A stretch of 64,000 nt of DNA from Bdellovibrionales bacterium. GTDB lineage: Bacteria > Bdellovibrionota > UBA1018. The translations under genes and the position numbers were made by a program. Every line of letters starts with the position of its first letter. Position 1 is the first letter of the stretch. The notes below the pieces were generated by a model. That model saw only the letters and a list, made by a program, of their open reading frames with translations, did not search any database and was not told the DNA's origin. Location: positions 62,001 to 126,000 of the forward strand of contig CANCQK010000006.1 of the NCBI GenBank assembly GCA_947380295.1. Direction: 5' to 3'. Below are positions 24,238 through 39,946 of this stretch, one piece after another.

Positions 24238-25194
24238 ATGGTTCTACTTCACGGAGTTAAAACTCTCGATCAAGAACTCACTCACCCGGTAGTCACTATT
24301 GGTAATTTTGACGGTGTCCACGTCGGGCACCAGAAAATTATATCCCTAGCCATGGATCTGGCAAAGTCGCGCGGAGGTCACAGCATTGCTTTGACCTTCA
24401 AACCTCACCCACAAGCAGCACTTAACCCCCAAAAAGAGATGCAGCTCCTCACCACGTACGAGGAAAAGATTCAAATCTTCAAGGGGTTAGGGATCGATTT
24501 CGCAATTGAAGAGCCATTTAGCCGGGAATTTTCAGAGATCGAGCCCATCGAATTTTTCAATGAGTTCCTGCTCAAGCGTCTCGGCGCAGAGTGCATCGTA
24601 GTCGGCTACGACTTTGGTTTTGGCAAAAATCGGGGCGGTCACCTCGATGTTTTAAAAGATCTGTGCCAGAACGCTCAGGTTGAGCTCATTGTCGTACCTC
24701 CAATGCGTCTAGAGGGTGAGATTATTTCCAGCTCGCGAATTCGAAACTACCTGATGCACGGACAAATCCAAGAAGCCAACCAGCTTTTGGGGCGTCGATT
24801 TTCTTATCAAGGGATTGTCTCTCATGGCGACGGAAGAGGCAAAAAGATCGGATTTCCCACAGCAAATTTGAAGATGGAAAATAAGCTCGTTTTACCCTAC
24901 GGCGTCTATGCCACCTACGCAGTATTTGGTGATCAGCTTTATCCAAGTGTCACTAATATTGGCGTTCGACCCACGTTTCAGCAAGGAAGGCCTGCACTAG
25001 TCGCATCCCCCCTCGTTGAAACCCACTTTTTGGATCAAACCTTGGATCTTTATGGCTACCGTTTAGAGATCCTTTTTGAGGAGCACATTCGGGCTGAGCA
25101 AAAGTTTAAAGATCTCGAGTCACTCAAAACTCAGATTCAACTGGATATTAAGACCGCTCGAAAGTGCCTAGGCTTCGTTCAAGACCCGAAGTGA
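24238..25194 (+). CDS. ribF: Bifunctional riboflavin kinase / FAD synthetase
   Basis: RibF phosphorylates riboflavin to FMN and adenylylates it to FAD. The 318-residue length fits. The N-terminal nucleotidyltransferase domain has IGNFDGVHVGH (21-31) and ISSSRIR (163-169), and the C-terminal kinase domain has GRGKKIGFPTAN (199-210) and PYGVYA. Both domains appear intact. It follows the YkgJ-like gene closely. Its last 27 bases overlap the 3' end of batD on the other strand. Confidence 0.95.
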   Translation: MVLLHGVKTLDQELTHPVVTIGNFDGVHVGHQKIISLAMDLAKSRGGHSIALTFKPHPQAALNPQKEMQLLTTYEEKIQIFKGLGIDFAIEEPFSREFSEIEPIEFFNEFLLKRLGAECIVVGYDFGFGKNRGGHLDVLKDLCQNAQVELIVVPPMRLEGEIISSSRIRNYLMHGQIQEANQLLGRRFSYQGIVSHGDGRGKKIGFPTANLKMENKLVLPYGVYATYAVFGDQLYPSVTNIGVRPTFQQGRPALVASPLVETHFLDQTLDLYGYRLEILFEEHIRAEQKFKDLESLKTQIQLDIKTARKCLGFVQDPK

Positions 25195-27189
25195 ACCTTT
25201 CCTCTTCGGGTTCGCACGCATTTCCTTCATCAATACCTGCGTTTCAGAAACTAGCTCTATTAGGTCTTGCTGAACTTTAAGGTCGTTTACAGCCCCTGAT
25301 TGGCCGGCAAAACGGACGAGATCTGCAAAGTCCAGAACTCGATTTAAGCGGACCCAAAGCTCCTGTGAAAACCCCGGCATTGCGAGTAAAATTCCTTGCA
25401 GATCTGAGCGTGAAGTCGCCCGAGCACTGGTTGCGTAGACTTCATCAATCGTCTGCAGCAGGGCGTCGTTGAGAATTTCATAATATCGAACCAGCTCTGA
25501 ATACTTGGCTTTCGCGATTTCATCCGATCCCAGGTTCTGCAACTTACTCCACTCTTTAAGAACCAAAGACGAGGCACTCGACTTGCGCTGCACCAGATCC
25601 CAAACTACCCAACCGGCGAAATACACGAGAGCAATGAGGCTCGCCCAATACAAATACCTCCAAAAGGGGAGAGGAACCGAATCAGCAGAGTGTCTTTCAG
25701 GCGGAAGCCAACCGCGAAGCTGCTCTTTTTTGCCACCCAAATTTTCCACTGCGCTGGTCTGATCGGCCTGTTCAGAGGCGTTAACGGCAGACGGTTTAGC
25801 TTCAGAAGCCTTCGGAGGCAAAGATGTAGAGCCCGGCAACGGATCCAGGACACGGATTTCAATGGGCTCGGTTGTTTTAGTATAAAAAGATTTTTTTTCA
25901 GGGTCAAAAAAAGCGAGCTGTAACGAAGGTAACACCAACTGTCCAGGGCTTCGAGGAATCAACAAAAACTCGAAAACCTTAGCTCCAGAATCGCCCTGAC
26001 TAGGCAGTGATCGTCCATGAGTATCATAAAGCTCAACTTGTGATGGCCATTTTCCCTGAGGAGCCTGCAAGGAGGAAAGATTTCCGTTGCCCTCAACTTT
26101 CAGAGTCAAAGTCATCGCCTCATTTGCTCTCACTTCATATTTATCCACCATTGAAATGAGATTAAACTGCCCGACTCCCCCTGAGAAATCTGTAGGACGC
26201 CCCTCCTGAGGGAGTGGAACAACGGTCACAGTGAGGGGTTCACTCTTGCCTTTACCCATTTTTTCAATCGGCTGACTAAAAAATCCAAAAAATGGATCTT
26301 CGTCCTCTCCCCATCCGAGTGGGTTACGACGTCTCCCTTCGAGGTAGACGTATTTCACGGCAACCGGCTCAACAGTAAGCTGACCCTCTGTCACCGGATA
26401 AGCTGCATAGCGAGCCAAAAGCGAACGTTCGAAAACCTCTCCGTTGAACTTCACCTCTTGGCTCTCGAGTGCTTGCCCCAACGCCATGGGAGAAAGATCC
26501 TCACGCAAAAAGCCGGTCAGCGTCGGAAACTGTTCTATCTGGACGCTAGAAATCCTAGGCTGATGATAAATATAATAGCTCACTAAAACTTTTTGGCCTT
26601 TGTAGGCTGTAGTCCGATCCACTTCAGCACGAACGAAAATCTTTGAGCCTGCACTCGATCGGGTATCACGTGCCCGGGGATCTCGCGGTCGAAGTCCTCG
26701 CCCCCGAAACGTCAATTGGCCTTGCGGGTAGCCCTGAGCCGACTTGGAGGACTGGCCAGACGCACCCACCGTTACGAAAACATCAGGAGCCTTAAAAATC
26801 TGATTCCCAGATTTCATCTGGATGTGACTAATCTTAACCTGGCCCTGTTTTTTGGGGCGCAAAAGAACCTGAACTGCCCGCTCGGTAACCGAGACCATCT
26901 GACTGGTGTTGTAATCATAGTGAGCGCTCATGGACATCGAGTTCGATTGCTGACCTATTTCAAAATCAGGAGCATCAAAACTCGGCTCACCGGCTCCCGT
27001 ATCACCTTCGGACTTCACAGAAAGTGTCAAAACGAGAGAATCATTGATCGATATCGATCGGGAATCTGTCGTTGCTGAAAACTGGATCGACGGGGATTGC
27101 GCCCAAACATCAGACAGAATAAGGCCCCAGAACAGGAGCATCCACTCCAGTTTTTTACCAATCCTTGGCTTGAGCTTGTTGGTTTCCAT
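25168..27189 (-). CDS. batD: BatD-like membrane protein of the MoxR-Bat operon
   Basis: BatD proteins are large periplasmic proteins anchored by a C-terminal helix; they accompany the VWA proteins BatA and BatB. The roughly 673-residue product has a signal peptide ending DVWAQ, Ig-like beta domains (SIQFSATTDSRSISINDSLVLTLSV... and YEVRANEAMTLTLKVEGNGN), a transmembrane helix near 540-558 and a cytoplasmic helical tail. ATG 27189 overlaps the upstream fusion gene by 35 bases and supplies a basic n-region. An ATG at 27141 is possible but would leave the signal peptide without positive charge. Confidence 0.85.
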   Translation of the reverse strand: METNKLKPRIGKKLEWMLLFWGLILSDVWAQSPSIQFSATTDSRSISINDSLVLTLSVKSEGDTGAGEPSFDAPDFEIGQQSNSMSMSAHYDYNTSQMVSVTERAVQVLLRPKKQGQVKISHIQMKSGNQIFKAPDVFVTVGASGQSSKSAQGYPQGQLTFRGRGLRPRDPRARDTRSSAGSKIFVRAEVDRTTAYKGQKVLVSYYIYHQPRISSVQIEQFPTLTGFLREDLSPMALGQALESQEVKFNGEVFERSLLARYAAYPVTEGQLTVEPVAVKYVYLEGRRRNPLGWGEDEDPFFGFFSQPIEKMGKGKSEPLTVTVVPLPQEGRPTDFSGGVGQFNLISMVDKYEVRANEAMTLTLKVEGNGNLSSLQAPQGKWPSQVELYDTHGRSLPSQGDSGAKVFEFLLIPRSPGQLVLPSLQLAFFDPEKKSFYTKTTEPIEIRVLDPLPGSTSLPPKASEAKPSAVNASEQADQTSAVENLGGKKEQLRGWLPPERHSADSVPLPFWRYLYWASLIALVYFAGWVVWDLVQRKSSASSLVLKEWSKLQNLGSDEIAKAKYSELVRYYEILNDALLQTIDEVYATSARATSRSDLQGILLAMPGFSQELWVRLNRVLDFADLVRFAGQSGAVNDLKVQQDLIELVSETQVLMKEMRANPKRKGSLRVLNEA

Positions 27190-29002
27190 TTTTTTTCTGT
27201 AATTTCTCCTGAAGTTCCCGCTCACGAGCTTTGAGTTCACTCAAAACCCGATTCGCGTCTTCAGATGTCATTTTTTGGGATTTAAAATCATCCTTCTTCT
27301 TCCCAGGTTGGGTCTCTTGATACCGCTTCTCTTCATCTGATTGCTGATGAGTCGAAGCTTGCTTTTGAGACTCCTGTGAAGAATTTTCCTTTTGTTTCTG
27401 TTCCTCACCTGATTTTTGTTTTTGATTTTCCGCGGACTGATTCTTTTGATCCTGGTTCTGCTGCGCTTGCTTCTCCTGCTCCTTCTTTTTTTGGTCGCGC
27501 TTTTTCATTTCATTGAGAACGAGCTGGAGATTCTTTCGCGCTTTTTCTTCTAGTTTTGGATCTTTAGATGCCATCGCCGACTTGATCGCATCGAGATAGG
27601 ATCGAATCGCCTCTTTGGCTTCGCCCTTCTTCTCAAGCGCATTGGCCAAATTGAAAAGAGCCTGATCTCTGAGCTCGGATTGTTTAGACTTCTCAGCCAG
27701 CTTAGCTGCTCGATCAAATGATTGAACCGCTCGATCGACATCCCCTTGTCGAAGTTGAATTACACCCTGGTTAAACTCAAGCTCTGGACTGTAGGGATCG
27801 AGAGCTTGAGCTGAGTTAAATCGTCGCTTAGCCTCGTCAAAATCGCCTCGCTGATAGGCCCTCAAGCCACGTTGAGTCTCTAAGTAACCTTCGATCGGAG
27901 CAGGCGCGCTCAAAACCGCATCTGCCCGCACAGGAACAGAGACGAAGAAAGTTGAGATCAAGAAAACAGCTAGGATCAAATTTCTGACTGGAAGTGATAT
28001 CTCAAGAATGAGCAAAATCACAGCAATGGCGAGAGGGAATTGAAATCGATCTTCATAGACTAAGAAACGTCGCTCCGAGTAATCTCCTCGCACTAAGCCA
28101 CTCATTTGCTTTTTGAGCTCCGAAATTTCTGATTCCTGCTGAGACAAAGACCAGTATTTCCCACCCGCTCGAGAAGCTAAACTCGTGAGATAATCCGAAT
28201 GAAAGGCACTCACGATCGGATTTCCCTTCCGATCCCTCTTAAATCCCAGAACATGTCCTGCATCGTCTCGAACGGGAATAGGCCCCCCTTTTTCAGTACC
28301 CACGCCGAAGGCATAAAACTGAATCCCTTTTTTCTTAATGAGGTCAGCCTCAACTAAGGCCTGATTTTCGTGATCCTCCCCATCTGACACCAAGATCACT
28401 ACGCGAGAGGCTACCGGAGCCTGACTACCACTCAAGACCTCTTCGGCCCCTCGCTCAATCGCTTGAGTCGCAGTTTGTAAGGCTAGGCCGATATCAGTTC
28501 CCTGATTCTGCATGAACTTGGGATCAAGAATTTGAACCGTGTCCCAAACATGATCTAAATCACTGGTCAGAGGACTCACTACAGCGGTGCTGGCGGCAAA
28601 TGCAACCACCCCGACTCGATCCCCATTTAAGGTCGAAAGCAGAGTTTTCACCCAATGTTTCATGGCCTGAAGACGGCTAGGCACGACGTCCTCAGCCCAC
28701 ATGCTATTGGAAATATCGAGCACCAAAACGACGTCCAAACCAGAGACTTTAATCGACTCCTCATGGCTTCCCCATTGCGGACGAGCAAGCGCTAAGAAAC
28801 CGAAAGCTAAAGCCAAAAGTCCAATCAGCGATTTTCTGAATCGAAGTTTGAAATTCAACTCAGGTGAGAGAAATTGCCAAAGCTTGGGTTGCGCAAATCG
28901 GGCAAACTGTTTCCTCCTCCGGCCCTCATCAAAATAGATCCAGCCTAACCAAAAAGGAAGAATCAGGAGTCCCCACAGCCACTGGGGTTCTAGGAACTTC
29001 AT
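27155..29002 (-). CDS. BatB-BatC fusion: VWA-domain membrane protein with TPR and Q/K/E-rich tail
   Basis: The 615-residue protein joins two Bat components. Residues 1-340 form a BatB-type membrane-anchored von Willebrand A domain with an intact MIDAS start (DISNS, 96-100) and flanking transmembrane segments (about 8-24, 58-74 and 322-340). A second hydrophobic segment (346-362) leads into TPR repeats (about 370-490, GLRAYQRGDFDEAKRRFNSA...), as in BatC. Residues about 500-570 are a low-complexity Gln/Lys/Glu tail. In Bacteroides these two parts are separate genes. The start overlaps the batA stop (ATGA). Confidence 0.88.
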   Translation of the reverse strand: MKFLEPQWLWGLLILPFWLGWIYFDEGRRRKQFARFAQPKLWQFLSPELNFKLRFRKSLIGLLALAFGFLALARPQWGSHEESIKVSGLDVVLVLDISNSMWAEDVVPSRLQAMKHWVKTLLSTLNGDRVGVVAFAASTAVVSPLTSDLDHVWDTVQILDPKFMQNQGTDIGLALQTATQAIERGAEEVLSGSQAPVASRVVILVSDGEDHENQALVEADLIKKKGIQFYAFGVGTEKGGPIPVRDDAGHVLGFKRDRKGNPIVSAFHSDYLTSLASRAGGKYWSLSQQESEISELKKQMSGLVRGDYSERRFLVYEDRFQFPLAIAVILLILEISLPVRNLILAVFLISTFFVSVPVRADAVLSAPAPIEGYLETQRGLRAYQRGDFDEAKRRFNSAQALDPYSPELEFNQGVIQLRQGDVDRAVQSFDRAAKLAEKSKQSELRDQALFNLANALEKKGEAKEAIRSYLDAIKSAMASKDPKLEEKARKNLQLVLNEMKKRDQKKKEQEKQAQQNQDQKNQSAENQKQKSGEEQKQKENSSQESQKQASTHQQSDEEKRYQETQPGKKKDDFKSQKMTSEDANRVLSELKARERELQEKLQKKNGNQQAQAKDW

Positions 29003-29982
29003 GGTAAAAACCTCCAGGCCAAACGCTCCAGAAGCTGAACTAAAACCAGCAAGACCAGACCCACCCTCAAAGGAAATTGAAAGTTCTCATCATAACGAAC
29101 TTTTTCTTTCGCTTTGACCACACTTTTTTCAAGTTGGTTGATTTCTCGGAAAACTTTTTCAAGTGTACTCTCGTCTGTCACTCGATAAAACTTACCCTGA
29201 GTTTCCTTCGCAATGAGTTTGAGAAGTTCAGGGTTGAGGGCATTTTCCACCTGCTGATAGGTTACGACTTCGCCCCCCAACAGACTTCGCCGCTTAATCG
29301 GGATATTCACGCGTCCCTCACGACCGACGGCGATCGTATACACGCGAATCCCAAAGCCTTGGGCCAGCTCACCAGCCGTTGCTGGATCAATTTGGCCCAG
29401 ATTATTATCCCCGTCCGTCAGTAAAATGATCACCTTGCTTTTGGCTTTCGAGCTTTTGAGATGCCCGATCGCAAGAGCTAAACCATCACCAATTGCCGTC
29501 CCATCCTTCAATACACCGATACTCGCCTGACGCAGTGCCTTGAGCAGAAGTCCATAGTCCAAGGTCGGAGGAGAAAGGGTGAGTGGTTCGCCACTAAACA
29601 TCACAAATCCGATTCGGTCGTTCTGGCGCCCCTTAATAAAGCTTTCCATCGTATCTTTGGCAACTTCGATTCGAGAGCGCTCACCAAGATCTACGATATT
29701 CATGCTGGCAGAAAAATCTAAAATCATCATGATATCAATGCCGTTGGTGTTTCTCTCCATCTGACGATAACTCGTCTGAGGCCTTGCTAAGGCCAAGATA
29801 AAAAGAATCAAAGCCAGATACTTGAGACTCATCCAGATTCTAAATGGACTTTTTGATGTGACTTCATCTGGAATGGGCATTGAAAACCTGACCCTTGCAG
29901 GACGGTTTCGATGCAGCCACCACCTATGCAAAACAGGAAGGAGAGCAAATAAGATGAGAAAACCCCAACTAGCGAATCGCAT
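28999..29982 (-). CDS. batA: BatA: VWA-domain inner-membrane protein
   Basis: The 327-residue protein has two N-terminal membrane helices, a VWA domain with the MIDAS motif DFSAS (89-93), DGTAIGDGLA and LLTDGDNN, and a C-terminal transmembrane helix (about 302-322). BatA-type proteins act with a MoxR AAA+ ATPase. Proposed roles include aerotolerance and envelope stress, but the molecular mechanism is not settled. It overlaps the neighbouring genes at both ends, so it is part of one tightly coupled operon. Confidence 0.9.
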   Translation of the reverse strand: MRFASWGFLILFALLPVLHRWWLHRNRPARVRFSMPIPDEVTSKSPFRIWMSLKYLALILFILALARPQTSYRQMERNTNGIDIMMILDFSASMNIVDLGERSRIEVAKDTMESFIKGRQNDRIGFVMFSGEPLTLSPPTLDYGLLLKALRQASIGVLKDGTAIGDGLALAIGHLKSSKAKSKVIILLTDGDNNLGQIDPATAGELAQGFGIRVYTIAVGREGRVNIPIKRRSLLGGEVVTYQQVENALNPELLKLIAKETQGKFYRVTDESTLEKVFREINQLEKSVVKAKEKVRYDENFQFPLRVGLVLLVLVQLLERLAWRFLP

Positions 29983-31084
29983 GGCCTGCCCATTCTCCTG
30001 AGATTGACGGTGTTTTTGATTCGATCACCTCAGATTTTCTTCGAGTCAGCTCTACCCACTCGCGTGCGGCCTTTAAAACCTCGAGCGCCTCACTTGCCTC
30101 TGGTTGGTAATCAGTGAATTTTACTCGATCCAGCGAACCAAACAATTTCCTGAGCTCTCCAACTTGTGAATCGCTCAGTTCGTTTGAAAATGGCGGCCCC
30201 AACTGGATTAAGTCACTCAAGGCCGTGAGCATTTCCCGGGTCGTTGCCTCGGGGGCATCGATTCGAAAACGGATTCCCACATAGACCTTCAGAATTTCAG
30301 AAATACCGAAGTAATACTTTTTAAACTCACCTCGAAGGGGATAGTTCATCTGCTCCAACTCTAACAGGCTTCGAAGAGCAATCTGATGCTCTGGCAAAAT
30401 AGGTTCCTTTTTCACCTCAAGCTGAGGATGTCGCAGGCGCCAGCGCCGCCACACAAAATAAATGAGCCCCGCAACTGCACAGGCTGCAACCAAACCTAGA
30501 CCGATGACCCAAAAGATCGGAAACTTCAAACCGACCGGAGGCTCCAGGTCATAGGGCTGGTCGGGCTCGGGGTCTTGCGGAGAAATTGCAGAGCGGACTT
30601 CAATCTGAAGCGGCACTGAACGAGCCACTTCTTTTCCTGCCGGGTCTTTGAGTGCAAACGCTGGCAAAACCAGCGTGCCTGGCTTAATCGCCGCTACCCA
30701 GAATCGAAACTCATCTGAGGCCGAAGCGCCAGGCATTTTGTCTAACCAATCAAAACCAATCTCACCTAAATTGGTCTGAGGTTCAAGCCACTCCACCTTG
30801 AGATCTTGCACCCGAACCTTGGAATCTCCCAGCTTGATTCCTTGGATCCTCATCTGAAGTTGATCGCCCACTCGCGGAGCTTCATGAGGCTGCAAATGAT
30901 CGAGTCGCTCGATCGTATAGGATTGTGTTGGTACGGCGCTGACCTCTGCTACTGGCTGGGAGGCCGCCTGAGCGAAACTCAAGATGCCTAAGCCTGACAT
31001 GCTCAACCACAGAACAACGGTCAAACCGAGCTTATTACCTTCGCCGCGAACGGGCGCGGAAAAATCGGACCACAGCCTCGCCAT
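29969..31084 (-). CDS. Bat-operon membrane protein (DUF4381-like accessory)
   Basis: The product has about 371 residues: a signal peptide ending AQAAS, a periplasmic beta domain, a single transmembrane helix near 188-212 (FWVIGLGLVAACAVAGLIYFVW) and a cytoplasmic helical domain (RSLLELEQMNYPLRGEFKKYYFGISEILKVYVGIRF). This layout matches the accessory membrane proteins found between DUF58 and VWA genes in MoxR operons. ATG 31084 has GAAGG six bases upstream and overlaps the DUF58 gene by about 50 bases. The family assignment is tentative. Confidence 0.7.
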   Translation of the reverse strand: MARLWSDFSAPVRGEGNKLGLTVVLWLSMSGLGILSFAQAASQPVAEVSAVPTQSYTIERLDHLQPHEAPRVGDQLQMRIQGIKLGDSKVRVQDLKVEWLEPQTNLGEIGFDWLDKMPGASASDEFRFWVAAIKPGTLVLPAFALKDPAGKEVARSVPLQIEVRSAISPQDPEPDQPYDLEPPVGLKFPIFWVIGLGLVAACAVAGLIYFVWRRWRLRHPQLEVKKEPILPEHQIALRSLLELEQMNYPLRGEFKKYYFGISEILKVYVGIRFRIDAPEATTREMLTALSDLIQLGPPFSNELSDSQVGELRKLFGSLDRVKFTDYQPEASEALEVLKAAREWVELTRRKSEVIESKTPSISGEWAGHAIR

Positions 31085-31910
31085 AATCATCCTTCGTAAG
31101 AATATTCAAAACCTCAATTCGGCCACCACTGAAGGCCGAGTGCTGATCTTGTTCTAGTTTCTTTTGATATTCCTTGAACCACTTCTGAAAACTGTAGGAG
31201 GAAGTATTCACCAATCGCTCCGCACCTGTCTCCGGATCTAAGAGGAGAATTTGTCCCAATTCCGGAATATTCTGCTCTCGCTCATCACCGATCCGAATCA
31301 CTACCACATCATGTCGTCGAGCCAGTCGTTTGAGCGCTCTTTCGTAGCCGGTAGCTAGAAAGTCACTCATGACGAAAACTACCCCACTGTGCTTCATCAC
31401 ACGACCAGTCGCATCGAGAGCACGTCCCAGGGCTGTACCCTGAGTTTTAGGCTGAAAACTAAGAAGATCTCGAATGATCCGCATGACGTGCTGTTTGCCT
31501 TTTTTCGGCGGAATGATCTTCTCCACTTCATCCGCAAAGATCAATGCTCCAATTCGGTCGCCCGTGTGGCTGACAGCAGAGGCGATCATTGCGCCGAGTT
31601 CTGCAATAATTTCAGACTTCAACCGAGCAGAAGATCCAAATCCTGCAGACCCAGAACTATCAATGACTAAAAAGACAGTGAGCTGACGCTCTTCTTCAAA
31701 TTTTTTAATCAGAGGATCTCGAGTTCGAGCACTCACTTTCCAGTCAATATGCCGGACGTCATCGCCAGGAACATAAGGACGATGCTCAGAAAACTGCACC
31801 CCTTGACCCTTAAAATGGCTTCGATACTGCCCCGAAAGGACGTCATCCACCACTTTGCGAGTTGTGATTTCAATCCACTTTACCTTTTTAAGTAATTCAT
31901 CGGGTAACAT
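31035..31910 (-). CDS. DUF58 domain protein of the MoxR-Bat operon
   Basis: The 291-residue soluble protein has the DUF58 signature RHIDWKVSARTRDPLIKKFEEER (starting near residue 53) followed by a VWA-like fold with a degenerate MIDAS start (DSSGSAGFG). Such proteins sit next to MoxR in most MoxR operons and are thought to act with the ATPase, though their biochemical function is not known. It starts at ATG 31910, 17 bases after moxR, and overlaps the next gene. Confidence 0.9.
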   Translation of the reverse strand: MLPDELLKKVKWIEITTRKVVDDVLSGQYRSHFKGQGVQFSEHRPYVPGDDVRHIDWKVSARTRDPLIKKFEEERQLTVFLVIDSSGSAGFGSSARLKSEIIAELGAMIASAVSHTGDRIGALIFADEVEKIIPPKKGKQHVMRIIRDLLSFQPKTQGTALGRALDATGRVMKHSGVVFVMSDFLATGYERALKRLARRHDVVVIRIGDEREQNIPELGQILLLDPETGAERLVNTSSYSFQKWFKEYQKKLEQDQHSAFSGGRIEVLNILTKDDYGEAVVRFFRARSRRR

Positions 31911-31927: not shown

Positions 31928-32920
31928 TTAAGGAACTTCAACACGTTCCAGAATCATTTTAACTATTTGCTCGCTGTCGACTCCCTCGGCTTCAGCCTCG
32001 TAGGAAACCATGACACGATGTCTGAGCACATCATAGGCAATCGCTTTAACATCCTCAGGAGTGACGTAACCTCGATGCTGAATAAAAGCGTGAGCCCGAC
32101 TTGCCTTAGCCAAAGCCAATGTGGCTCGAGGAGAAGCCCCCACTTGGATTTGATTCTTAAGATCCTTCAACCCATATTTTTCAGGGAAGCGAGTCGCAAA
32201 AACCACGGACAAAATATAATCTTTGAGCTTTTCGTCCATGTAAATCTTTGAACAAATTTTCCGTGCTTCAAGAATCGTTGCGGGATGACAAATACGGTTT
32301 GGCTTCGGGGGAAGCGCACCAGACATTCGATTCAAAATAGCTTTTTCTTCAGTCAAGGTCGGATAGGTGACTCGGATCTTAAATAAAAATCGATCGAGTT
32401 GGGCCTCTGGTAAAGGATAGGTCCCTTCCTGCTCGATTGGGTTTTGAGTCGCCAATACGATGAAAAGTTCCTGCATCGGGTAGGTGGTTTCACCAATCGT
32501 GACTTGGTGCTCACCCATCGCCTCAAGCAAAGCACTCTGCACTTTTGCAGGGGCACGATTGATTTCATCTGCCAACACGAGGTTCGTAAAGATGGGGCCC
32601 TTTTTAGGAGAAAAATCCCCGGTTTTTTGATTAAAAATCATGGTCCCAACTAAGTCAGCAGGGAGCAAATCGGGCGTGAATTGTATCCGTTGAAAATCAG
32701 CATGAATGACCTCAGCCATCGTTTTGATGGTTAAGGTCTTAGCCAACCCCGGCAATCCCTCAAGTAGAACGTGTCCCTCACAAAGAAGTGCGAGTAAGAG
32801 ACGCTCCAAAAGAGTCTGTTGACCCACCACGACTTGAGAAATCTCATTCATGATCGAATCGACGAATTGACTTTTTGCTCTAATTTCTTCCGTTATTGCA
32901 TTTACATCAATTGAGGACAT
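31928..32920 (-). CDS. moxR: MoxR-family AAA+ ATPase
   Basis: MoxR ATPases are chaperone-like AAA+ proteins that act on VWA-domain clients. The 330-residue product has Walker A GLPGLAKT (55-62), Walker B LVLADE (114-119) with the family NRAPAKVQSALLEAM, and a C-terminal lid (DVLRHRVMVSYEAEAEGV). It is the second gene of the operon, 24 bases downstream of the giant lipoprotein gene. Confidence 0.95.
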   Translation of the reverse strand: MSSIDVNAITEEIRAKSQFVDSIMNEISQVVVGQQTLLERLLLALLCEGHVLLEGLPGLAKTLTIKTMAEVIHADFQRIQFTPDLLPADLVGTMIFNQKTGDFSPKKGPIFTNLVLADEINRAPAKVQSALLEAMGEHQVTIGETTYPMQELFIVLATQNPIEQEGTYPLPEAQLDRFLFKIRVTYPTLTEEKAILNRMSGALPPKPNRICHPATILEARKICSKIYMDEKLKDYILSVVFATRFPEKYGLKDLKNQIQVGASPRATLALAKASRAHAFIQHRGYVTPEDVKAIAYDVLRHRVMVSYEAEAEGVDSEQIVKMILERVEVP

Positions 32921-32944: not shown

Positions 32945-35900
32945 TCAGTTTTCAGGAAGACTCCTACGAATGAGTCTTAAAAATTCTACCATCTGACCGT
33001 CCTCGATTAATTGATTCAGAATGTCGAGTAATAAGTCCGCGTTTGTTAAATGAGAAGTCGAACTTCCCACGTGAGCTCGTCTTTCCTTTAAAGAAAACTT
33101 GACTAGTTCGTTCAACTCAGAAGATCTACCGTCTTGCTTAAAGGTCAAAAAATGAGCAAGACTCTCCCTTAATGCCTGAGCTGCGGCCACTCTCTGTTTT
33201 AGATCCACTTCAACACCTGTTTGTGGAGATTTCTCCTCAAGAAAATCTAACAAAGGCCGAAGTACATCCTCAAGCTTCAAGGCTTTAAAACTTGGGTCTT
33301 CCTGAAGGCGCTGAACTCCTCGGGCCAAATTCTCCAAGGAATGCCAAGCGCTCGAATCTTTCCAGACTTCGTGAGTCAAGTACAGTCCCTCGCAAAGACG
33401 ACTCTCTCTGGGCTCACTCTGAGTTTTTCTCAGATCGATGGCAGACAAAGAAGAGAGCGCCTCTTTCAATCGCCTGTTCCACCGATCAGGACAACCCGGA
33501 TCATTCTGTGTTTCCCCAGTCACTTGATCAAGGGCCTGAGCAAAAGAGGATGCCCAACCCGAATCGAGAATTTTTTTAGCGAGAACGGAAATGTCCCCAT
33601 CCCGATTCTTGGTATGTCCGCTCAACCAAAAGTAGAAATGAGCCAATACCTCTTCAGCGCGATCGAGCGCCAGATTAACCACTCCAGGAGGAGGTAGCTC
33701 CTGACCCAACTGAGCACCCCAGGGATCGACTCGATCGACAGCACTCAAAAGATAAAACGAAGCCCGATTTAATTCATCGATTTGAGCAGGTTTTGCATTG
33801 AGTAGCCCCTCTAAACCGTGCCAGATCAGATCGTTGTGAGAATCTTCCTCAAGGAGAGTCTTGGTCAACTTAAGCATTTCGGGCGCACTACCACCTCGAA
33901 TCAAAGTCCGAAATGCAGCCTCAAGTCTTGAATCCCCTAACTCAAAGTGCTGGAGCAATTGCCCCACTCGATGCATCGCTCCAAGTCGAACCACATGCCC
34001 CATGAGACTCAGCTGATTCTCGCTTTGAAGGGTGGCAGGAAATGGTTTAGATCGAACTGACTCAGGGTTTGAATAGTAAACCTCGAAGAAAAAATCCCTC
34101 ATGACAGGCAACAATCCGCCATCATCATTTCCAGAACTGCCAGGAACATTTTCCCGTAGAGAATCAACCGACTGCCAGAGATTGAAAAGCATCCCCTGCA
34201 TATCTTTTAATTCTCTCTGGCCTCTCGCCGTATTCAGGCCCCCTTTGAATCGAATTAATCCCTCCTTAATTAAGGGATGCCCCTCGCTCATCGCAGGAGC
34301 TGGAGGCTGTTGGTACTGAGGACTATCTAACGAGGGAGGCAACTCGACTATGCGAAATACCTCGGTCCCGAACTCCTCGGAATGAAACGACCTGCGCTCC
34401 TTCGGACGTCTCGCAATATTATCCTGAATGCACTGAGGCAAGGGAGGAAGTCCCGCCGCATTCTCAGTCAAAAGCCGAATATCCTCTAACCCGTGATAGC
34501 GTGAATAATCAAACTGAGGTCGATAAACGCCTAACTTCCAGCCCGCAATCTGTGCACCAATCGTCCACGGATTAAACTTCTGGTCGTGTTGAGCCGGACG
34601 ATGCAAAATGCCCTCTACAGCTTCATGAAGGGTCCTAGGCCGATTCTGTTCATAACTGTGGCGAGCAACCTCTTCACTCCAGTCTGAGACATTTTTGAAA
34701 TCATTCTTCAGAGCCAAATCATAGGCAACTTGATATTTCTTAATGATGATTTCTGGCCACTGATCGGCGGGCAAATCGCCCCAGGCATCAGCGATCTCTT
34801 GGGAAAACTGAAGGGCAAGATTCTTACCCGGAGGCACATCAAGCGCAAGGTTAACGTTATAAAGCGTCTTTTCCAACAAATCTAAGTCACTATCTAAAAC
34901 CACATAGGGCTGATCATGCCCCCTGTAATACTGAATTCTGGGCCTCACTCGGAGGGCGCGTTTATGAAAAAGTTTTAAGAGCTTCTCAGGAGTATACCTT
35001 CGCCCAGGAGCTCCCACCGGGCCTAACGCACTTTTTACAAAGCTGAGAGTCGAATCCAATAGCGGGTGTTTTGGATCACTCAGCTTCTGGTCGCGCATTC
35101 GCACCAAAACGGGTTCAATTTCACTTCTCATCGATTCGAAATCCCAAGAGCGATGAACCTGAGGAGACTGAGGAGACCCAACCAAACTGTGAGTCGTCAC
35201 TCGTTCTTTAGATTCCTGAATAATCTCCTCAACGCGCTTTGCAACGTCCAAGTGAGGACCACGCCAGCACTCGACCGATTGTACCCAGTGAGCTAACACT
35301 TCGCGAATTTCGGGGGTATACACTCGGTCCAAAGCCATTTTTTTATGAGATTGTTCTTGCTGTTGAGGTTCCTCAGTCGCTTGTTGGGAATGAACTGACT
35401 GTGCCCGCTTCAACAAAACCTCAGCGTCAGAGAGAAGCTTTGGAAACTCTGGCCCTTTTAAAACATCAGCAATCCAATCCTCAAGATCCTCTGCCCGTTT
35501 CAGCGAAGAACCTTCCCGGACTACTGGCTCCATCGCAAGGAGCAGGGACTTCAACAGAGGATCAGTCTCCATTTCGCTCTCGGATCCTTTTTTTGTAAAA
35601 AATGGAATCGCCTGAAGTGACCTGAACCATGAATTTTGAGACAGTGCATTCGCCTCTGCATCTCGATCGATTCCAGTAAACTTAAAATCATCCATCCAGC
35701 CTTGAATCAGATATTTCAAACTAGGAGACTCCAACCCACCGAAGGCCCCATTGAGAGCATTGACTTGATATGACAAAAAACCATGACTTTCACTGTTATC
35801 AAAATTCGATCGATCAAATAGATCCCAAATCTTTCGATCCAACGGGGAATCACTTTTCTGCTTGCAGGCTAGGAAATAGTCTAGCTGAGCAGAGAATCTC

Positions 35901-38008
35901 TTCTCATTCTGAGTATCTGCGAGGGAGAAATTCAAATCCATTTGTCGACACGCTAAATACTTACTAGAATTAAATGAAGCAGCGGGTGATGGTGCAGGGA
36001 CTACTTTTAATGAATGGCTCGATACCAGATTGAAAGTAGGCTCATCAGTCTCACGAATCGTAATTTTATCGGGCCCTTCTTGCGCCTTGATGGCGTACTT
36101 ATGAAAGAGCTGAAACATAGACTCAGTAATCGCCTTCATCTCGCCATTGCTCGAAAGCACAGACCACTCACTCAAAGCATCTACTAACAATTCAGACATG
36201 GGCCTACCGCGACCGCCCGCATCAGGTGACTGACGATCTACGATAGAAAACAACGCTTCAAAAAGTTTTCTATTCTCGGATTCAGAAGCTTGGGACCCCA
36301 ATCTCCTCATCAGACTCAGAAAAGGTGTGACGTCGTTGACGTAATGAATCTTGCGGCCTGTCTCCATCAGAGACTGGACTAATTTACCGTCTCGCTCGGC
36401 AAGAAGTCCACCAATCCCCTTAAAGACATTAAAAACATCCTGCAAACTAGCTCGTGCCGCTGCACCTGAGAAAACCTCAGTCAAACTTTGATTCCCCAGC
36501 TCAGGCCTCAACTCAGTAGCAAAGGTCAAGACAGAGCTCAGATCACTCCTCTGCTGATCACCATAAATTGTAGCCAAAAGCAGAGCATCCGTAAGCAGCC
36601 CCCGCGAAAGGGCATCCTGAAGCACAGGAGACAAATGATGAATTCCACCCTGCCCACTTGGTCCACCATCCGCGAAGGAATGCATCACAAAGTCGATCCA
36701 TGGTCTAAAAGACTCACCAGCATAAGCAGTCTGCAGAGGGCACAAAGCATCCTTTGCCACATCTGAATCGACAGCAAACTGCTTGTCATTCAAAGTTCGC
36801 AAGAGCTCAATCATAGGAACAGTGACACCACTATCCACCAATGCATGGAGCGCCTGGTAGTGATCTGTCAGCTGATCAGGAAAGTTGCAAAACGGTCTCA
36901 ATGCCATCAGCGTAAGAGGAGCCTCGTGACTAATGTATTCTTCCACCTTCAATTGAGGCCGAAGCATCTCACGAATCAGATACCGCGTAGCATCAGGAAT
37001 CGACTTTACCCCCTTCATACAGGCAATAGGCGGCGAATGATCCGGACTCAGAGCATAGAATGAAGAAGCGAGCTGATCCAATAGAAGAGGACTCTGATTG
37101 GGTTGAGATAACAATCCCTGAAACAAATGGTTAACCTTGGGGAGCTTCGTTTCGATTTCACTCGTGTTGGAGCCCAAAAGCTCAACAAGAACAGGAAAAA
37201 TAAGATTATGACGAGCCAACCATCCGAGCTCTCTCCCCAGAGTCTCTCGACGCGAGCCGCATTGAAACGTATGATCTTCTCGAAGGTAACTCAGGAGTTC
37301 ACCGACTAACCGCTGATTTGCCTCGTCTCGCTTCTCTTTTGTCTCACCTGGAAATCGTGCTTCAAGAAGATGCGCCCGCAAAGACCCAAAGGAAGGAGCC
37401 CTGACGGCTAATATACCCAAATCAAGAGCCTGCCTTAATTTTGTGTCATCCAAGGCTTGAACGACCAGTTGAATTGCCTTTAGGATATTCTGATCCGCGA
37501 CTAAGGCAGAATTCGCATTTTTATCTTTAATATAATACCCAGACCTCAGAACCTTAAGAACACTCACGATCAGCTCAGGCTGCTTTAAGAGATCCGCAGT
37601 CAATGCAAAGACATCATCATGCAATCCAGTCTGAGCTAAGGACTGATAAGTCATTTCAAATTCATAAAGACGCTTTGGATCATTCAATATCGCCTGATTA
37701 AGAAATCGTATCAGTGGATCAAGCTCCGAGTTTTCAACTCGATCAAACAGGGCCTGCGTCTTTTCCAATGCGCCTGAGGAATTAAAGCAGGAAATCAGAC
37801 CTCTCACAGTTTGAGCATTTAACTCAGAGCTCTTCAAATCCATCCCACCACAATTGCGATTAATCTGACGATATTGCCTTTGGTTTAGAACCGCTCGGTC
37901 TTTTCCATTTTCAAAAAAACTAGATAAAGAACAACTGGAATTCATGACCATCAGGAAAAAGATCCAAACGGCTCCGAAATTTTCTAGGCGCTTTTTCAAT
38001 TGAATCAC
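32945..38008 (-). CDS. Giant putative lipoprotein (1687 residues) heading the MoxR-Bat operon
   Basis: I do not recognise this protein as a named family. It has a basic N-terminus, a hydrophobic signal (FGAVWIFFLMVM) and a possible but non-canonical lipobox with Cys at position 26 (VMNSSC). The remaining 1660 residues look almost entirely alpha-helical, with recurring short helical pairs reminiscent of HEAT/ARM or TPR solenoids. There is no obvious catalytic motif and no transmembrane helix beyond the signal. The start is GTG 38008 with TAGGAG seven bases upstream. MoxR follows after 24 bases, which suggests a function tied to the Bat complex in the periplasm or at the outer membrane. Confidence 0.8.
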   Translation of the reverse strand: MIQLKKRLENFGAVWIFFLMVMNSSCSLSSFFENGKDRAVLNQRQYRQINRNCGGMDLKSSELNAQTVRGLISCFNSSGALEKTQALFDRVENSELDPLIRFLNQAILNDPKRLYEFEMTYQSLAQTGLHDDVFALTADLLKQPELIVSVLKVLRSGYYIKDKNANSALVADQNILKAIQLVVQALDDTKLRQALDLGILAVRAPSFGSLRAHLLEARFPGETKEKRDEANQRLVGELLSYLREDHTFQCGSRRETLGRELGWLARHNLIFPVLVELLGSNTSEIETKLPKVNHLFQGLLSQPNQSPLLLDQLASSFYALSPDHSPPIACMKGVKSIPDATRYLIREMLRPQLKVEEYISHEAPLTLMALRPFCNFPDQLTDHYQALHALVDSGVTVPMIELLRTLNDKQFAVDSDVAKDALCPLQTAYAGESFRPWIDFVMHSFADGGPSGQGGIHHLSPVLQDALSRGLLTDALLLATIYGDQQRSDLSSVLTFATELRPELGNQSLTEVFSGAAARASLQDVFNVFKGIGGLLAERDGKLVQSLMETGRKIHYVNDVTPFLSLMRRLGSQASESENRKLFEALFSIVDRQSPDAGGRGRPMSELLVDALSEWSVLSSNGEMKAITESMFQLFHKYAIKAQEGPDKITIRETDEPTFNLVSSHSLKVVPAPSPAASFNSSKYLACRQMDLNFSLADTQNEKRFSAQLDYFLACKQKSDSPLDRKIWDLFDRSNFDNSESHGFLSYQVNALNGAFGGLESPSLKYLIQGWMDDFKFTGIDRDAEANALSQNSWFRSLQAIPFFTKKGSESEMETDPLLKSLLLAMEPVVREGSSLKRAEDLEDWIADVLKGPEFPKLLSDAEVLLKRAQSVHSQQATEEPQQQEQSHKKMALDRVYTPEIREVLAHWVQSVECWRGPHLDVAKRVEEIIQESKERVTTHSLVGSPQSPQVHRSWDFESMRSEIEPVLVRMRDQKLSDPKHPLLDSTLSFVKSALGPVGAPGRRYTPEKLLKLFHKRALRVRPRIQYYRGHDQPYVVLDSDLDLLEKTLYNVNLALDVPPGKNLALQFSQEIADAWGDLPADQWPEIIIKKYQVAYDLALKNDFKNVSDWSEEVARHSYEQNRPRTLHEAVEGILHRPAQHDQKFNPWTIGAQIAGWKLGVYRPQFDYSRYHGLEDIRLLTENAAGLPPLPQCIQDNIARRPKERRSFHSEEFGTEVFRIVELPPSLDSPQYQQPPAPAMSEGHPLIKEGLIRFKGGLNTARGQRELKDMQGMLFNLWQSVDSLRENVPGSSGNDDGGLLPVMRDFFFEVYYSNPESVRSKPFPATLQSENQLSLMGHVVRLGAMHRVGQLLQHFELGDSRLEAAFRTLIRGGSAPEMLKLTKTLLEEDSHNDLIWHGLEGLLNAKPAQIDELNRASFYLLSAVDRVDPWGAQLGQELPPPGVVNLALDRAEEVLAHFYFWLSGHTKNRDGDISVLAKKILDSGWASSFAQALDQVTGETQNDPGCPDRWNRRLKEALSSLSAIDLRKTQSEPRESRLCEGLYLTHEVWKDSSAWHSLENLARGVQRLQEDPSFKALKLEDVLRPLLDFLEEKSPQTGVEVDLKQRVAAAQALRESLAHFLTFKQDGRSSELNELVKFSLKERRAHVGSSTSHLTNADLLLDILNQLIEDGQMVEFLRLIRRSLPEN

Positions 38009-38130
38009 CAGACGCTCCTATTTAAATACAAGAAGTTAAAACAGCTCCTCTGGGGTACCAAAATTCACCGAACGAGTCAACCTTGTTTAATTTATATAAC
38101 TACCTGATATTAATAGTCTTTATGCGTCAA

Positions 38131-38136
38131 TATAAT
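38131..38136 (+). promoter_or_regulatory. Candidate -10 box upstream of the M28 peptidase gene
   Basis: The 186-base gap between the divergent giant-lipoprotein and M28 peptidase genes is AT-rich. It holds a perfect TATAAT at 38131-38136 on the plus strand, about 58 bases before the chosen ATG. No good -35 hexamer lies at the right distance, so this is weak evidence. I see no clear promoter for the lipoprotein beyond a TTGACT with a poor -10. Confidence 0.25.
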
Positions 38137-38194
38137 ATCTCTTGATGAAAAAGCCTGTAACAATCAAAAATGGTAACTATCTGTGCGAAAAAAG

Positions 38195-39946
38195 ATGAAA
38201 TTTCCTTCATTTTCACCCTGGACGATCTTGATTCGCTCGTCCCTGATTTGCGGTCTCTTAGCCGCAATCCTGCTCTCCATGAATTTAAATCGAGTTGAGC
38301 CTCTTCCTCTCGATCTAAGCCCCCTTCAATTTGATGCAAACCGCGCACATGAAAAGATGTTCAGTCTGTCTAAAAAATTTCCAAGCCGCGTGACATGGGG
38401 CGAAAATCGAAAAAAAGCTGCAAACTGGCTAAAAGAGGAGTTCAGAGAACTTGGATACACACCTCGATCTCTTCAGTTCTCAGAGGTCATTGCTGGAAAA
38501 CAGTATAATCAGCTTGAGAATATTTATGTTGAAAAGAAGGGCTCTCAACACCCGGATGAAATCATTGTGGCCATGGCGCACTACGACATTACTGATACAA
38601 CCACCGAAGGCGCTATGGACGATGCCTCGGGAGTCGGCACGGTGCTTGAACTGGCTCGCCTCTTTGCAAAAACGCAGCCGAATCGGACTCTAGTTTTTCT
38701 ACTCACTGATAGTGAGGAATTTGGTGCGTTCTGGGGCGCTCGGGCATTTGCAAAATCGTTTGAACGGGCTGACAAAATTGTAGCTGCTCTCAATTTTGAT
38801 TTTATTTCACCTGGGAAAATCACTAAAATACTCACTCTCTGCGACGGACTAAAAACCGGGTACACACCTCTTTGGTTTCGCGAAATCGCATTGAACTCCA
38901 TTCGTTCCTTAAATGAAGTTGAGGCCAAAGACCTGGATGGAATTGAGGAATTCGTCGAGCGAGCTATGCTCATCCCACCAGCGGATCATGGCGCATTTCT
39001 TCAAGCAGGCATCCCAGCCCTCAATTGGGTAGGTCAGCCCGAAAATTTTAGCTATGTCATGGCTCATTACCACCACACTCAGGCCGACGTAGCAGAGGCT
39101 CTTGAGCCTCGATCGTTTCGAGTCGTGGGTCAGGCAGCCGAACGAGTCTTGAGAAGCATCGATCAACTCCCGAGACTCCCAGAGAATTGGCGCGATGCAT
39201 CGTACTGGAAACTCTCAGAGAGCTACTACCTCCCAGGCTGGACCGTGACTCTACTTCATATTTTGATTTTTGTACCCTTCGTCGCATTTAGCTTGGTTAA
39301 GTTTGCACTTTCTGCAAAGGCATCAAGAAAAGAGCGGATTTTATCCATCGTAAAAAATGAACTAACTCAAACTGCTATTCTGTTTACCTCGATGCTCTCA
39401 GGCTATGGTTTCATGCTGATCCTCCCAGTACTCCACCTCCTCACACAGTACGAGACATTTCCTGCAACACAAAAATCCTTAATTCTCTATTCGCCTAATT
39501 TTCTAGTCATGCTTTCGGTTTTCGGCACAATCGGGACTGTTTTCACGATTTTGAGGGCTTGGGTCGCACACCCGTTGGATCAAGCCCATCACCCTAAGAT
39601 CCGACACACCGTGCTTACAGCACTACTCGCACTGATCATCGCCCTTGCCTTCTTAAAAAATAGCTACCTAGGAACCCTCCTCCTGTTACCACCAGCCTAC
39701 TTTTGGATGGCCATTGATTGCAGAAAGGATCACGAGGGGCGAGCCGTCAATACACTTCTGATCCTGGGAGGAGCAGTCACTTTTCTTGCGATTGCAATCG
39801 TGCTCAATACGGTTTTTCACGTCGGTGTTTTTTATTGGTACTTATTTCTTTCCGTTACATACGGACTCATATCGACGTATGCAGTTATTCTTTTCTTTTT
39901 GTCGATTACAGTAATGATCAGACTATTTAGATCTTTTGTGCTTTGA
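38195..39946 (+). CDS. Membrane-bound M28-family zinc metallopeptidase
   Basis: The 583-residue protein has an N-terminal membrane anchor (about 11-29), an M28 aminopeptidase domain and a C-terminal half with about six or seven transmembrane helices (from about 315). The co-catalytic zinc ligands are visible: H129 in AHYD, D142 in GAMDDASG, E174/E175 in TDSEEFG, D202 in NFDF, and H294 in HHTQAD. Such architecture resembles the Fxna/ERMP1 type, with a periplasmic peptidase and polytopic tail. ATG 38195 was chosen over a GTG at 38183; neither has a strong SD. Its substrate is unknown. Confidence 0.82.
   Translation: MKFPSFSPWTILIRSSLICGLLAAILLSMNLNRVEPLPLDLSPLQFDANRAHEKMFSLSKKFPSRVTWGENRKKAANWLKEEFRELGYTPRSLQFSEVIAGKQYNQLENIYVEKKGSQHPDEIIVAMAHYDITDTTTEGAMDDASGVGTVLELARLFAKTQPNRTLVFLLTDSEEFGAFWGARAFAKSFERADKIVAALNFDFISPGKITKILTLCDGLKTGYTPLWFREIALNSIRSLNEVEAKDLDGIEEFVERAMLIPPADHGAFLQAGIPALNWVGQPENFSYVMAHYHHTQADVAEALEPRSFRVVGQAAERVLRSIDQLPRLPENWRDASYWKLSESYYLPGWTVTLLHILIFVPFVAFSLVKFALSAKASRKERILSIVKNELTQTAILFTSMLSGYGFMLILPVLHLLTQYETFPATQKSLILYSPNFLVMLSVFGTIGTVFTILRAWVAHPLDQAHHPKIRHTVLTALLALIIALAFLKNSYLGTLLLLPPAYFWMAIDCRKDHEGRAVNTLLILGGAVTFLAIAIVLNTVFHVGVFYWYLFLSVTYGLISTYAVILFFLSITVMIRLFRSFVL

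Follow-up and report, generated by a model that had tools for sequence, protein, structure and literature searches.

The giant putative lipoprotein gene and the predicted operon behind it

The window, a 64,000-nucleotide stretch from a Bdellovibrionales bacterium, carries on its minus strand a gene (32945-38008) for a giant putative lipoprotein of 1687 aa. The ORF is the biggest in the window; it begins with a GTG codon that has AGGAG just 5' of it, its translation runs without an internal stop, and it ends 24 nt before the start of moxR (32920). The size, the rank and the position on the same strand as moxR that the initial annotation had given are thereby confirmed. The ORF is not a chance one, since it shares 91% and 42-47% identity with same-genus copies and has homologues in 41/58 relatives by protein search (42/58 by profile search).

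The six genes that follow on the same strand have the content of a MoxR-Bat operon. The first is moxR (31928-32920), encoding an AAA+ ATPase with AAA_3 (8.6e-65) and AAA_lid_2 (7.5e-23) domains, followed by a gene for a DUF58/VWA-like protein recognized by domain search (31035-31910) and one for a 373 aa protein with two hydrophobic segments and a weak DUF4381-like match (E 0.11; 29969-31090). Domain search and hydrophobic segments identify a BatA-like VWA membrane protein (28999-29982) and a BatB/BatC-like VWA plus TPR membrane protein (27155-29002), and BatD, identified by domain search, closes the run (25168-27240). BatD, as called from a GTG codon, overlaps the VWA-TPR gene by 86 nt (27155-27240), and its true start probably lies further downstream. 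The 24 nt between the lipoprotein gene and moxR are followed by a spacing of 17 nt and thereafter by overlaps.

The 174 bp between the lipoprotein gene and an M28 peptidase gene (38009-38182) are the probable promoter region of the operon; a promoter scan of this region gave a match on the minus strand (38161-38132) that is no better than chance. No promoter- or terminator-like site above chance was found at the operon, and none on the coding strand of the 24-nt gap, where a promoter separating the lipoprotein gene from moxR had been considered at the outset. Rfam features were not found in the operon region. The M28 peptidase (38183-39946, plus strand) is divergently encoded and has a membrane part; the same divergent M28-lipoprotein gene pair is found in L027, L029, L037, L038 and L042.

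A divergent family of putative secreted lipoproteins

Thirty full-length homologues of 1247-1688 aa, with identities down to 16-19%, were aligned (alignment A1). The signal peptide (residues 1-25) and lipobox of the window copy (MIQLKKRLENFGAVWIFFLMVMNSS followed by Cys; 37931-38008, minus strand) precede the putative lipid-acceptor Cys26. The Cys26 column is Cys in 30/30 homologues (the N-terminus of L003 being doubtful), with a hydrophobic stretch before it; 24/30 homologues pass a PROSITE-type lipobox pattern and the +2 residue is Ser in 28 of the 30. The lipobox of the window copy, VMNSSC, has an atypical Asn at -3 and fails this pattern, while the family is canonical and Cys26 still aligns; the lipidation of the window copy is thus predicted from the family. 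No further hydrophobic segment of the protein reached the threshold used. Family-level signals support the assignment of the window protein as a putative secreted lipoprotein, as first annotated. Its placement in the outer membrane is probable, by analogy with the E. coli sorting rule for Ser at +2.

Cysteines 330, 374, 687 and 715 are invariant and cysteines 53 and 74 nearly so, giving the pairs 53/74, 330/374 and 687/715. A fourth pair, 914/1193, is probable: Cys914 is absent in six members, Cys1193 in five and both in four (hypergeometric p 0.003, kinship ignored), and this joint loss fits a disulphide. We infer that the paired cysteines fit an oxidising compartment. In the same-genus homologue of G001, the N-terminal part (L003:284-581) does not align and is without Cys53/74, probably because this fragmented MAG contains a frame error.

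Pfam gave no match for the window protein even at E<=1, and searches of NCBIfam and PDB sequences gave no significant family apart from designed helical repeats; among the homologues, Pfam and NCBIfam returned just scattered weak matches to single members. A known characterised family was therefore rejected, Foldseek being equally empty (see below), and the description of the protein as unknown stands. By these searches, the lipoprotein belongs to a divergent protein family for which we found no description.

Predicted structure

Two overlapping AlphaFold models, of residues 27-1110 (pLDDT 76, pTM 0.63) and 890-1687 (pLDDT 80.6, pTM 0.79), together contain about 62% helix and 5% strand. The expectation of a wholly alpha-helical protein thus holds for most of the chain and not for its strands. 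The N-terminal helical module spans residues about 45-220, and conserved blocks lie at about 1000-1090 and, towards the C-terminus, about 1265-1435. The most conserved internal block according to the alignment and the AlphaFold model (residues about 1025-1089; 34742-34936, minus strand) carries an L(D/E)R(L/I)E motif, D1043, E1046, N1063, G1077 and D1078, and a beta hairpin is predicted there.

The segment-wise prediction and structure-database search called for by the initial annotation yielded these helical models and no Foldseek match against the PDB at E<=0.001; the top matches, LeuT-type transporters with TM up to 0.13, are meaningless. A profile of the N-terminal about 100 residues matched designed PPR and solenoid chains (2.3e-10), which can be read as "helical repeat-like" at most and is probably driven by composition. 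No PPR or TPR repeat scored above the curated threshold in the family (TPR_2 appeared in one member only, 0.029), and no enzyme signature was found in the lipoprotein.

Linkage to moxR within the order

Of 35 homologous genes examined, 28 share the strand of moxR and end no more than 145 nt before it. The order rplI-dnaB-(lipoprotein)-moxR is conserved in part of the order and appears to be the older neighbourhood. At 10 loci a different gene (for M28, Lon, an FAD/Rieske protein or a YkuD protein, among others) takes the upstream place of dnaB and moxR is still adjacent, while no locus with dnaB kept and moxR lost was found among those with both flanks available (sign test p 0.002, for loci that are not phylogenetically independent). 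Hitchhiking with dnaB is disfavoured by this asymmetry.

On a MoxR-DUF58-VWA tree, the presence of the lipoprotein needs several changes inside the order. This patchiness is consistent with repeated loss, on a tree that cannot separate gain from loss. Where the lipoprotein is absent, the Bat operon persists and dnaB or another gene abuts moxR. A 920 aa gene upstream of moxR in L071 was rejected as a diverged homologue (profile E 0.5).

The same arrangement in a second class

An N-terminal profile (A5), built from weak profile matches outside the order and holding no operon information, was run against 241 genomes of the phylum and recovered lipoproteins of 1270-1490 aa in family f15, which belongs to a different class and contributed no protein to A5. 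In 12/12 f15 loci opened, the lipoprotein gene directly precedes a co-directional moxR-DUF58-VWA run, a single SAM-methyltransferase gene intervening before moxR in half of them. The upstream flank is wholly different, with lepB, MutS2, NFACT and a 269-aa secreted protein. Alignment of A1 with the f15 alignment (A6) by hhalign gave a probability of 98.6 and, over 1008 columns, E 7.5e-16. The lipobox and the first Cys pairs coincide: C19, C41/C62, C276/C326 and C574/C599 of f15 mirror C26, C53/C74, C330/C374 and C687/C715. The two groups thus have in common full-length homology, the lipobox Cys, three Cys pairs and a place immediately upstream of moxR. A6 matches 37 genomes, 36/37 of them in f15.

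Judged from gene order and homology, the lipoprotein-moxR linkage extends to two classes of Bdellovibrionota. The fact that it is kept despite a changing upstream flank, and in a second class as well, makes positional hitchhiking unlikely. The phylogenetic profile beside moxR that had been suggested (28/35 copies moxR-linked, and the 12/12 f15 loci) and the differing upstream flanks bear out the proposal of the initial annotation, and support the giant lipoprotein gene as the putative leading component of the MoxR-Bat operon.

Twenty f15 loci have no A6 match; there the lipoprotein gene is missing from its place after the 269-aa gene and before moxR, and the rest of the gene order is similar apart from occasional rearrangements. 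The 269-aa protein (fam3; e.g. L111:5826-6635; L111-L123 except L121), precedes the lipoprotein in 12/12 f15 loci, and its gene mostly remains where the lipoprotein is absent. One f15 genome with a lipoprotein homologue, G064, is that of the cultured predator Halobacteriovorax marinus SJ (PMC5760749), which makes the question of the role of the lipoprotein directly testable. Its lipoprotein gene occupies about 110.6-114.7 kb on the chromosome. No such lipoprotein gene stands before moxR in the loci examined of f13. Family f13 is presumably Bdellovibrio.

Proposed role of the lipoprotein

The Bat operon is near-universal in the phylum (217/241 genomes) and many genomes keep it without the lipoprotein. 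Conversely, f11 and f19, two families in which a search at E<=1e-20 returned no BatA-type gene, hold N-terminal relatives of 820-940 aa. These two facts speak against an obligate partnership and indicate that the lipoprotein is an accessory part. Some paralogues lie far from moxR, and relatives in f10, f11, f19, f24 and f25 stand away from it, beside other secreted proteins. A weak match in G168 contains stop codons and was discarded.

We propose, giving this reading about an even chance, that the MoxR-Bat envelope system has in the lipoprotein an accessory, lineage-specific subunit that is anchored to a membrane and serves the VWA proteins in the periplasm as a scaffold or adaptor, much as the initial annotation had suggested. 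The helical models, together with the lack of an enzyme family and of a fold match, lead us to a scaffold. After export the protein would be lipidated at Cys26 and, given Ser at +2 and E. coli rules, would probably reach the outer membrane. Folded with three or four disulphides, it would form a long alpha-helical scaffold within the periplasm and would bind BatD and/or the periplasmic VWA domains of BatA/BatB. The cytoplasmic MoxR ATPase could thereby work, via the inner-membrane Bat complex, on a periplasmic partner that is anchored to a membrane. That partner would be optional, since the Bat core is kept in many relatives that lack it. The VWA domain of the BatA-type protein BB0173 of Borrelia was shown to be exposed to the periplasm (PMC5700661), which implies that a periplasmic partner can reach such a domain. 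In its furthest form, which we put forward tentatively as possible, a giant outer-membrane-anchored helical lipoprotein would couple the ATP-driven cytoplasmic MoxR ring, via the inner-membrane VWA proteins, to the outer membrane in at least two classes of Bdellovibrionota, as an undescribed trans-envelope machine.

Other readings of the same locus have to be weighed. The lipoprotein may have a function of its own, e.g. in lipid or outer-membrane upkeep, and be merely co-transcribed with the Bat genes after recruitment beside moxR. The relatives away from moxR beside secreted proteins, some of them weakly Polyketide_cyc/START-like, and the repeated absences without loss of Bat genes point this way; we nevertheless think it rather doubtful, in view of full-length homologues that are mostly moxR-linked and of a linkage that outlasts upstream-flank changes both in the order and in f15. 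Alternatively, MoxR and the VWA proteins may serve as a chaperone for the export, folding or assembly of the lipoprotein as their dedicated client. In two classes the gene directly precedes moxR and points the same way, and MoxR ATPases are described as chaperone-like for dedicated complexes (PMC3893208). However, the lipoprotein cannot be the sole client of an operon that is kept in so many lipoprotein-less genomes of a phylum where 217/241 have it, and some genomes in which no Bat operon turned up do hold relatives, hence we regard this reading as unlikely.

It is very improbable that the ORF is a chance or mis-called one, or that the gene simply hitchhikes in a conserved neighbourhood. Conservation over more than 1000 columns across classes refutes the former, and although part of the order shares the arrangement rplI-dnaB-(lipoprotein)-moxR, moxR is retained where dnaB is replaced and in f15 with a different flank.

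Comparison with known systems

Outer-membrane TPR/solenoid lipoproteins that dock on other machines, such as BamD and LpoA, are helical and lipid-anchored, features that are predicted for the giant lipoprotein too. The giant lipoprotein has neither sequence nor fold match to them, is several times longer and has conserved Cys pairs. It likewise differs from PPR and designed alpha-solenoid repeats, which its N-terminal about 100 residues resemble by profile, in being secreted and without a Pfam PPR match.

The operon resembles the MoxR-Bat (Bacteroides aerotolerance) operons of Bacteroides, Leptospira and Borrelia in its single co-directional run of moxR, DUF58, BatA-type VWA, VWA-TPR and BatD genes, and differs from them in that a gene for a secreted lipoprotein of 1.3-1.7 kilo-residues precedes moxR. 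The Bat literature searched describes no giant leading lipoprotein gene, the Leptospira Bat paper (PMC3557215) nowhere mentions a lipoprotein, and the literature searched held nothing on MoxR-Bat in Bdellovibrionota. Similarly to the BatA-like protein of the window, BB0173 is an inner-membrane VWA protein encoded beside a MoxR gene, with a periplasmic VWA domain; the part of that report consulted mentions no giant lipoprotein (PMC5700661). The function of Bat proteins is elusive, Leptospira mutants having shown no protective role against oxidative stress (PMC3557215), and a conserved periplasmic partner gene would help to find the envelope component that the MoxR-Bat machine acts on.

Neighbours of the relatives away from moxR

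Relatives not linked to moxR (L093:5916-10971, L094:5670-10275, L121:4751-8594, L045:2083-7470 and L032:8375-12409) often stand beside secreted proteins that are weakly START/Polyketide_cyc-like, at a frequency for which the background is uncontrolled; the neighbour at L032:11717-12409 matches PF03364 at 4.9e-4, below the gathering score. Such neighbours might hint at a lipid-related role. Behind the f24 and f25 relatives of 1287-1347 aa (L091:4202-8982, L098:3715-8462) come secreted proteins, homologous to each other and 246-295 aa long, which have by eye the look of outer-membrane beta-barrels (C-terminal aromatic residue, alternating pattern). The f10 relative of about 820 aa (L095:4130-9864) lies between a patatin-like gene and the gene of a secreted 322-aa protein, after which come purB and purC.
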